DNA from: Falciphora oryzae
Taxonomy: Eukaryota > Ascomycota > Sordariomycetes > Magnaporthales > Magnaporthaceae
DNA length: 64,000 bases
Direction of reading: 5' to 3'
NCBI GenBank assembly: GCA_000733355.1
Contig: JNVV01000009.1
Location: 1,007,605 to 1,071,604 of the forward strand
The notes under the pieces are model-generated. The model ran no database searches, was not told where the DNA came from, and saw only the letters and a list, made by a program, of their open reading frames with translations. This document shows positions 21,786 to 33,933 of the stretch, piece by piece (position 1 is the stretch's first letter; the number at the start of each line of letters is the position of its first letter). Made by a program: the position numbers and the translations under genes.

Positions 21786-21950
21786 TAGTCTCAGTGCCTC
21801 AAACTAGTCTCAGTGCCTCAAACGTAATCGATTCAAAAAGGGCCGGCCCACCGCGGCTCCATGACTCGGTAGGGTGGCGCAACGAAGTCATTTGGTCTGT
21901 GCGCACGTACCGGCGGGCCGGCCCTCTTTTTAAAGATCACGTCTGAGACA
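21786..21950. repeat. Left terminal module with paired GGGCCGGCCC palindromes
   Basis: After a tandem pair of the 19-bp terminus come GGGCCGGCCC at 21840-21849 and again at 21915-21924. Outside them, TCAAACGT(A/G)ATC and GATCACGTCTGA face each other, so the whole ~115 bp is itself an imperfect inverted repeat around a unique 65-bp core. The same module closes the right end. Confidence 0.85.
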
Positions 21951-22250
21951 ACATGGTGATTTTTTCCTTCTTATGGGGATATTCCCCATACAAACTGAAA
22001 AAATCTATATTAAACACTCGGCCATATCTATATAACTACATATCGCATCCATTAATAAAGAAGTATTTAAAGGTGGGAATAGCTTTAACTCCAAACTGAA
22101 ATACTTTTTATTCCGCCTAAGCGCTTCGTTCGCAATTGCTAATCGCTAACGCGAAAATTATTTTATGGGGATAAAATAGTATTATTCCCGTAACCTTCCA
22201 CAACCACCTCCTAATTTACCACTTTATATAGTTACCGGACTAAAAATTTG

Positions 22251-24642
22251 ATGGAAAGCATTTCCGAGCCTACCTTAACAGCCGACGGTATATCGCTTGC
22301 GTTGCGCGCAATCGAAAATAATCGCGCGTTAGCTACCGGGCAATATTAAGGCCGCCCTTTTCGGGACGTTATCTTTAACATTTACTACCATACGAACAAA
22401 CCGGAAAACACGCTTTTTTAACGTAAATTTATTACTTCCGTTACCAAAGCACTTTTAAATTAGCCCCGAAAAGGCTAAAAATACCACATACCATAGCGAA
22501 AACCTAAGCCCGACCAAATCTCCTGCATTTAACGTATCGTTTATAAATTTGGGGATACTATCCTTATCGCCAAAACAAGATATAGCAAAAGCATCGTATT
22601 CCAAGCAGTATTTATCATCCGGAATTAACATATCACTATCCAATTCGTCCTATTAAATAAGTTGGGGGAAAAACAAACCCAGGTCGTTACCGGGTTCCTA
22701 TAGGCTAAGCCCATTTTACTTAACCATTTAACGAAAAATGTAAAATATTGGAGTAATAAAAGCGCAAATCGGGCTAGGCTAATATATATTACTATCCTAA
22801 ACCGATAACGTATGGAAACCTAGCAACCCGGCAGGATACACGCATTTTTTGCTTAGGCTAAAGCAAGCTACCGATTATCGGTTCCTTCGTTTTTTTCGCA
22901 ACTCCGAATTCAGCACACAAATAGCTTTTATCGCCATTAACGAACTTTATACGGTTTATTAATGGAGGGAATTCCATACCTTATACCTAAATCTCTATTT
23001 TATCCGCTCCGCGATCCTTACGTCGATCCCGTTTTTTAGGTGTATAGTAACATTTACCTAAAAAGCCAAATAGTTCGTTTTTACTTATACGGGGTTTAAA
23101 TTCCTTAGCCCTAACAAAAACCAGCTACAAATTGTTCGAATATTTGTAAATAGGCCGGAAATTTTTTTCGTAATGCAGTGCTTCGAAAGGGGATAACGAT
23201 AAGATAACTACCGTCGCTTTTTTTTTTTAGTAAAAAATATGCTGCCCGGGTTCGAACCTTTTTTGATTCCTAAAACTATTATTTATATAAATTTTTGCAA
23301 TGGGCTTGTAAAAGCCCGCTATGCTTTCATATTATATTTCGAAAGCCGAAGAATTAATAGCGCAATGTCTAATCGTACGATTGTTGCTTACCATTTTATT
23401 ACACCGCCCATTAACCAAAAACGGATATATAATATATTCCGGAAAGCCGATTCCCCTATTAGGATTGTTTTATCTACTGTTTCCCTCGGAATAGGTATGG
23501 ATATCCCAAACGTTATGCGTATCGTATAATATAAGGCCCTGCTTTTACAAGATGTTGCGGATTTGATGCAAAGATTTAATCGCGCATGCCGTTCCGGTAA
23601 CCGCCGAAGCACGGGGTATTTTTTCGCCCCCTATTAGTATTTCGACATAATAGGCACAAGCGATAAAATTTTAACGCAAAAAAAACGCCGTATCCCGCAA
23701 TAACATGCACCTTTTACCCCAAGCAATTTACGCCTATCGATGGCAACTTTAAAGGATGATATTGCGATAAACGCGTCCCATAGGTCGGTTGCATCGGCCG
23801 CGTCGGCCGCGTTAAGCTATTCCACGTCACACTTTACCCCCGTTAACGCAAACTAAATAATTAAAAGGAAGCTATTAGCGCCAGCATTTTAAAACGACGC
23901 GGACTACACATTCGGTATTTATTCGGGCGCCATTCCCTTGTTATGGACCGCTACCGAAATTAAATAGCGAACTAAATTGCGGAACGAACACCCTTATATG
24001 TACGATTTCGTTAATGCCTTTTGTTTCCGGCGGGAATGTTTTAATTAATTGCAAAAGGTAAAAGCATATCGAATGCCACCCGAAAATTGCTGCAACGTAT
24101 ATTCCTATAAATTCGGTGAATTTGACGTTTTTCCCAAACTAAACAAGCCGATCGTAGAAATTAAAAAGCATATAAAGCCGTAGTTTATACGTAAAAAGCT
24201 GATGGCAGTTTTGAAGCGTATCGCTAATACCAAATTATACCCCGATCCCATTCGGCTATTTACCCTCCCCGGCACAATTTTAATGGAAGATATTATAGCA
24301 AACCATTTAGCAAAAGCTATCGAATCGAAAAAAGGCTCGTTGGATTTGCCACAAGTCCGCGCGCTTGCATAAAACTTCGGGGATTAAAAATAGCACGCAT
24401 AATTAGGAACAAATGGCGACCTGCTACGCGAAAAAGTGCAGGGTATATACCGCCGGGGAATTGCTTCGCATTAGGAGCATTACCGCCAGTCCATAATAAA
24501 AAGGAGGCAGCCCCAACAACCACAATCGCAACCGGAAGGAAGTGCTAGCTAAGGACACGGGTTTTCGTTTTAAAGGAAAAGACGTAAACGGGTATAATTT
24601 GCGCCGGTTCTAATGCAAAAGTTAAGGGTAAACCCAGATTGA
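22251..24642 (+). pseudogene. RecQ-like SF2 DNA helicase, left arm
   Basis: Helicase motifs appear in order: motif I near 22570 (FGDTILIAK then a damaged TRYSKS, ancestral TGYGKS), motif II near 22935 (AINELY, ancestral DELH), motif III near 23040, the strand-swap lobe with STVSLGIGMDIPNV near 23490, and motif VI near 23570 (LMQRFNRACRSGNRR). A C-terminal zinc-like segment (MPPENCCN) and a charged tail follow, with a TGA at 24640-24642 conserved in the other arm. Many TAA/TAG codons interrupt it. The frame shifts once between motifs I and II in both arms, so an intron or an old indel lies there. Such helicases unwind DNA 3' to 5'. The gene converges on the DUF6589 gene 27 bp away. Confidence 0.75.
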
Positions 24643-33487: not shown

Positions 33488-33789
33488 CAAATTTTTAATC
33501 CGGTAACCACATAAAGTAGTAAACCAGGAAGTGGTTGTAGAAAGTTGCGGGAATAATGCTATTTTATCCCCATAAAATAATTTTCGCGTTAGCGATTAGC
33601 AATTGCGAACGAAGCGCTTAGGCGGAATAAAAAGTATTTCAGTTTGGAATTAAAGCTATTCCTACCTTTAAACACTTTTTTATTAATGGATGCGATATAT
33701 GGTTATATAGATATAGCCGAATGTTTAATATAGATTTTTTCAGTTTGTATAGGGAACATCCCCATAAAAAGGAAAAAATCACCATGTTA

Positions 33790-33933
33790 TTTCAAACGTG
33801 ATTTTTAAAAAGAGGGCCGGCCCGCCGGTACGTGCGCACAGACCAAATGACTTCGTTGCGCCACCCTACCGAGTTATGGAGCCGCGGTGGGCCGGCCCTT
33901 TTTAAATCGATCACGTTTAAGGCACTGAGACTA
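33790..33933. repeat. Right terminal module with paired GGGCCGGCCC palindromes
   Basis: GGGCCGGCCC occurs at 33814-33823 and 33889-33898, mirror positions of the left module. Only one copy of the 19-bp terminus is present, against two on the left. Confidence 0.85.

Follow-up and report, generated by a model that had tools for sequence, protein, structure and literature searches.

The AcademH lineage of the Academ superfamily, reportedly introduced by Kojima in 2020, comprises DNA transposons described from fungi and animals. In the portions of two articles available to us, these elements carry 9- or 10-bp target site duplications (TSDs) and encode a helicase (PMC10045372), and they occur at low copy number in Basidiomycota, Ascomycota and Mucoromycota (PMC10799480). 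A second fungal DNA transposon, KolobokH, carries a RecQ helicase, and Kolobok elements are characterized by TTAA target duplications and RR..YY termini (PMC9587614, in part). Here we describe a locus in the ascomycete Falciphora oryzae whose helicase and 9-bp TSDs match the description of AcademH. It lies in a 64,000-nucleotide window (contig C9, bases 1,007,605-1,071,604), analysed together with the genome of 50.2 Mb in 123 contigs, and takes the form of a 12.1-kb palindrome. With a probability of about 0.83, this palindrome consists of two nested ~6-kb cut-and-paste copies, one (A) lodged in a terminal repeat of its partner (B), both of them decayed and AcademH-like.

Layout of the palindromic locus

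Self-BLAST of the window yields one inverted match of 21805-33933 to itself, covering 12,131 columns at 91.9% identity, which bears out the two inverted ~6-kb arms reported by a first-pass annotation of this DNA. The inverted ends and the 9-bp direct repeat outside them are likewise borne out. TAGTCTCAGTGCC is found at the palindrome ends, and in the window the 9-mer AGGTTCAAT occurs on the plus strand only at 21777-21785 and 33934-33942, abutting both ends, and nowhere on the minus strand. The description of the arms holds for their inversion but not for their full symmetry: the left arm has an additional 19-bp copy of the terminal inverted repeat (TIR), with TAGTCTCAGTGCC starting at both 21786 and 21805, 19 bp apart, and the centre, which reads GTTTGAGGC, then 10 bp, then GC[C>T]T[C>T]AAAC, is no plain mirror point. 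Helicase and DUF6589 genes converge within each arm as first described, and all four mapped stretches contain in-frame stops. The features of the locus are as follows.

21777..21785: 9-bp target duplication of element B, outer left-hand copy (AGGTTCAAT)
21786..21804, minus strand: 19-bp stub TAGTCTCAGTGCCTCAAAC, the outermost piece of the right-end TIR of B, apparently severed by insertion of A
21796..21804: left copy of the 9-bp target duplication of A, GCCTCAAAC, within the TIR of B
21805..27873, plus strand: element A, 6069 bp, complete save for its inverted last 10 bp
21805..21823, plus strand: left TIR of A
22281..24471, plus strand: RecQ-like SF2 (superfamily 2) helicase gene of A, stop-broken (tblastn with the C92 helicase)
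24730..27309, minus strand: DUF6589 gene of A (predicted DDE transposase), stop-broken
27855..27873, minus strand: right TIR of A, made up of GTTTGAGGC and then the inverted 10 bp
27864..27873: flipped 10-bp spacer, reading TAGTTTTAGT in place of the expected ACTGAGACTA; the other strand reads ACTAAAACTA
27874..27882: right copy of the target duplication of A, GCTTTAAAC, matching at 7 of 9 positions, both mismatches C to T
27883..33933, minus strand: remainder of element B, which measures 6070 bp once the 21786-21804 stub is added
28672..31008, plus strand: DUF6589 gene of B, stop-broken
31153..33457, minus strand: RecQ-like helicase gene of B, stop-broken (tblastn with the C92 helicase)
33915..33933, minus strand: left TIR of B
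33934..33942: 9-bp target duplication of B, outer right-hand copy (AGGTTCAAT)

When A (21805-27873) is removed, B regains a canonical right end and is complete at 6070 bp, with AGGTTCAAT on both sides. The junction formed by joining 21804 to 27883, TAGTCTCAGTGCCTCAAAC followed by CAGGTGTGGCGGAAGTCCCCCGAGTCAC, is identical at 46 of 47 bases to the right end of a single copy on contig C23. Because B without A is complete and flanked in this manner, the outer repeat AGGTTCAAT marks the insertion of B rather than that of the palindrome. The flanks of A also correspond, since the nine bases before it (GCCTCAAAC) and the nine after it (GCTTTAAAC) agree at seven positions and differ at two, each time by C to T. 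The sole oddity of this layout is the spacer, where ACTGAGACTA is expected and TAGTTTTAGT, the reverse complement of ACTAAAACTA, is found. Such a flip would be the expected outcome of a crossover between the 6-kb arms, a step that we infer; a 19-bp duplication combined with a 10-bp loss from A is a less likely reading of the same central letters.

We propose that B inserted first, duplicating AGGTTCAAT, and that A would then have entered the right-end TIR of B in the opposite orientation, at a point 19 bp inward of the tip, with duplication of GCCTCAAAC. The near-identical copies, lying tail to tail, would thereby form a palindrome, whose central 10-bp spacer may have been flipped by a later crossover between the arms, and mutation of C to T resembling repeat-induced point mutation (RIP) would have ruined both A and B. 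A precedent is the maize double Ds, in which one Ds is inserted inverted in another. There too, self-insertion of a cut-and-paste element produces an inverted, near-palindromic pair, although Ds belongs to another superfamily and the present insertion falls within a terminal repeat. Self-insertion of cut-and-paste elements is also known from the autointegration of Sleeping Beauty and piggyBac; according to the part of the source available to us, autointegrating Sleeping Beauty mostly avoided its terminal repeats, and Tn10 is said to target them (PMC3952818).

Single copies elsewhere in the genome

The 165-bp terminal module has 14 matches in the genome, 11 of them strong (92-100% identity), namely the two ends in the window and at least nine other places with a strong left-terminus match, on eight contigs. 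With an arm as query, copies are found on C23, C48 (two), C116, C108, C51, C56, C93 and C24, most of them 89-94% identical to it, in addition to more distant relatives (64-81%). Of the 66 candidates in this search 39 were scored, with the window itself unlisted, so that the genome holds at least this number of copies.

Both ends were read for seven single copies (C23, C48a, C48b, C59, C85, C92 and C54). Single copies are 6.1-6.7 kb long with TIRs of ~19 bp at both ends, and six of these seven are flanked by perfect 9-bp target duplications:

C23: GCCTTCTCC
C48a: GCACGCACG
C48b: AACGACGGG
C59: AGACGACTT
C92: ACCCCGTCA
C54: GGTGGAGGC

Two TIRs are present in the seventh, C85, and no target duplication was found at its ends. 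Outside the count fall C116 (no right TIR within the 1.5 kb read), C56 (a rearranged end adjoining masked N), C51 (which runs off its contig), and C108, C24 and C93 (right ends unread). In the subfamily of the window the TIR is TAGTCTCAGTGCCTCARAC, which continues with GT at left ends and with CAGGTGTGG at right ends; variants of TAGTCTCAGTGCCTCARAC occur in C92 and C54, and the element termini are TA..TA. Because single copies with their own TIRs and 9-bp duplications exist, the transposon is the 6-kb arm, and its target duplication is 9 bp.

These single copies support the original view of the locus as mobile DNA that carries TIRs and duplicates 9 bp of its target. They do not support its further proposal of a new class of palindromic element, nor did the palindrome insert as one unit, as had been claimed, if it comprises two copies with one nested in the TIR of the other. 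Transposition to this site, as a unit, of a double palindrome bearing a left end on either side would agree with the perfect 9-bp repeat outside both outer ends, with the same TIR at each of them, and with a short repeat allele common to A and B that is not seen in five of five other readable copies. We nevertheless regard such a move as improbable. It had been asked whether single-arm and double-arm forms both exist. Single 6-kb copies do, and of the nine outside places with a strong left-terminus match, a lower-bound count, none has a second, inverted left terminus ~12 kb away. One of the nine, C51, reaches the end of its contig, and the C48 pair, with 25 kb between its members, consists of distinct single copies, each having TSDs of its own. 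Moreover, nesting alone accounts for the extra left 19-bp TIR and for the centre.

Decay and kinship of the two arms

A and B differ at 485 of 6054 aligned columns, and all differences are transitions (245 C/T and 240 A/G). Relative to the majority letter, A carries 276 changes, including 144 C>T and 106 G>A, while B carries 361, including 171 C>T and 126 G>A. When both strands are pooled, the C>T changes of A fall at CpA (111), CpT (94), CpC (26) and CpG (19), for which A offers 614, 552, 792 and 796 sites, respectively. This transition-only change, biased to CpA and CpT, points to RIP-like decay. Like the single copies, their TIRs and 9-bp duplications and the restored end of B, the decay can be read from the DNA letters themselves.

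A fold-back error of the assembly, or an inverted duplication produced recently by replication, would be difficult to reconcile with this pattern. Long inverted repeats are generally known as a classic type of artefact, but the two arms show 8% divergence, spread fairly evenly along their length (identity of 88.8-94.8% in steps of 250 bp, and of 98% over the final 54), each has mutations of its own, and a TIR stub and two distinct target duplications are present. We consider an origin of this kind the least credible of those weighed here.

The identity between A and B (92.0%) lies inside the range of A against other copies (90.3-92.6%), and substitutions, nearly all being transitions, are unable to resolve the kinship of the copies. 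Near arm position ~5502, A (~27306) and B (~28432) both carry the short repeat allele, and all five other readable copies (C23, C48a, C48b, C116 and C56) have expanded repeats, with a 27-bp insertion in C23. The shared short allele weighs against full independence of A and B. A sister-chromatid copy of B itself as the source of A would fit, and gene conversion or shared ancestry would fit equally.

Proteins of the element

Better-preserved relatives on C92 and C54 supplied the proteins for domain and structure searches. The C92 helicase matches Pfam Helicase_C (3.9e-12) and DEAD (6.2e-6; 26.5 bits against a cut-off of 26) across two frames, as well as WRN and RecQ chains in PDB from 1.7e-11. 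By these matches it is a RecQ-like SF2 helicase, which may aid transposition or repair. In other fungi, 4 of 19 DUF6589 matches pair with one of 48 helicase matches on contigs of equal size (7473, 14770, 645570 and 97513 bases), and no such partner appears for the other 15. Three of the four pairs have the same species name, including Annulohypoxylon truncatum on the 7.5-kb contig. Judged by equal contig sizes, the contig sequences themselves being unread, this pairing suggests that the helicase and DUF6589 genes travel together.

The DUF6589 proteins of C92 and C54 match the Pfam family at 1.6e-53 and 5.7e-53, and the genome contains 47 DUF6589 places, 46 of them above the cut-off. A profile search of protein databases with alignment A1 gave seven matches, of which all that carry species names are fungal, and a PDB profile search with alignment A2 gave none at E<=10. 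The predicted fold is nearest to RNase-H transposases (P element and Hermes), at moderate scores and 9-12% aligned identity, with Z scores that carry the tool's caution for helical models; a second AlphaFold model, P0012 (mean predicted local distance difference test score, pLDDT, 63.6), is poorer than the model used. This predicted RNase-H-type fold supports the earlier suggestion that DUF6589 is the transposase. No mention of DUF6589 was found in our literature search, and publications naming PF20231 concern other subjects, judging by their titles.

DUF6589 would cut via a D-D-E triad for which D319, D466 and E717 of protein P0001 are candidates. In the P0001 model, D319 lies in a strand, D466 just past a strand and E717 in a helix, where the register with Hermes, P and RAG1 is set only by the ends of ranges and by residue numbers. 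Another acid, E673 (GPEMLY), is invariant in 16 aligned fungal DUF6589 proteins and is present in C92 and C54. It was dropped as the catalytic acid in favour of E717, since Q stands at this place in every motif-bearing copy of the window subfamily (the arms L021 and L033, with L011, L016, L022, L024, L025 and L031) and of the C59-like subfamily (L013, L015, L017 and L018), and E717 is retained in C51, C56, C23, C48b, C116 and C108. The Q codon is CAA, with TAA in L017, and several copies of this kind still have clean duplications. K (AAG) occupies the E717 position in copies that are C54-like by motif only (L010, L023, L026, L027, L030, L035, L036 and L037), and C35 also has K there. These copies may be mobilised in trans, or the residue may be non-catalytic, so that E717 is a tentative choice.

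Class assignment and the surrounding window

Helitrons, which to our knowledge have neither TSDs nor TIRs, were rejected on account of the TIRs and 9-bp TSDs. The likeness to hAT (Hermes) and the P element is one of fold, comprising a predicted RNase-H-like core in which an extended helical region precedes the last helices. Those superfamilies have 8-bp TSDs and, as far as we know, no helicase, whereas the present elements have 9-bp duplications and a helicase, and the aligned identity is 9-12%.

Most likely the elements are AcademH-like, a membership that we infer from published description. The two share the character of a DNA transposon, a helicase, 9- or 10-bp TSDs and fungal hosts. DEAD and Helicase_C domains are found in C92, and the same gene, broken, in the window; the perfect 9-bp duplications in six of seven single copies agree with the TSD length, and the ~19-bp TIRs at both ends with what is assumed for DNA transposons generally. 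The nested pair sets the present locus apart, and AcademH is compared here by its published description; the parts of PMC12730594, PMC8290104, PMC12210899, PMC9970103 and PMC10989895 available to us hold no AcademH sequence or termini. The initial statement that the gene content fits no fungal transposon class had overlooked this lineage, with its helicase and 9-10-bp TSDs (PMC10045372, in part).

The elements might instead constitute a separate superfamily whose transposase is DUF6589 and which resembles AcademH in helicase and TSD length only. The literature found does not mention DUF6589, and the P element and hAT rank first in the fold comparison, which was made without an Academ sequence. 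However, the combination of helicase, 9-10-bp TSDs and fungal hosts is that of AcademH as described in the available parts of PMC10045372 and PMC10799480, and we hold a separate superfamily to be unlikely. Equally doubtful is the wider proposal of a large helicase-bearing fungal superfamily, distinct from Academ and near P and hAT, whose transposase is DUF6589 and in which mutual TIR insertion can leave giant palindromes. KolobokH resembles these elements in its RecQ helicase, fungal hosts and DDD/E transposase, but the available part of PMC9587614 gives TTAA duplications and RR..YY termini for Kolobok; here none of the duplications is TTAA, all are 9 bp, the ends are TA..TA, and the helicase and DUF6589 genes converge. 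An identity with KolobokH is thus very improbable.

Elsewhere in the window, a second large inverted repeat lies at 55696-57867 / 60111-62282 (2172 bp, 86% identity), a 505-bp inverted match at 53396-53900 / 57855-58359, and three direct copies of ~1.2-1.3 kb (87-90% identity) at 38437-39698, 39672-40983 and 48839-50046. Direct repeats of 126 bp at 37228-37644 and 45884-47602 resemble TPR coding sequence, and the minus strand of these intervals has AAA_22 and DUF7779 matches below cut-offs, in frames that appear NLR-like. An N gap near 37766-38136 may conceal a repeat-rich gene. Long reading frames at 53974-55914, of which 54712-55911 is without a Pfam match, presumably resemble the gag-like open reading frame of a long interspersed nuclear element (LINE).

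The nested reading of the palindrome removes a false candidate for a new class of palindromic mobile element, and indicates that nested self-insertion combined with a spacer flip can mimic such an element. DUF6589, a Pfam family of unknown function, gains a testable role with candidate catalytic residues, as the proposed transposase of helicase-bearing fungal transposons that make 9-bp duplications.
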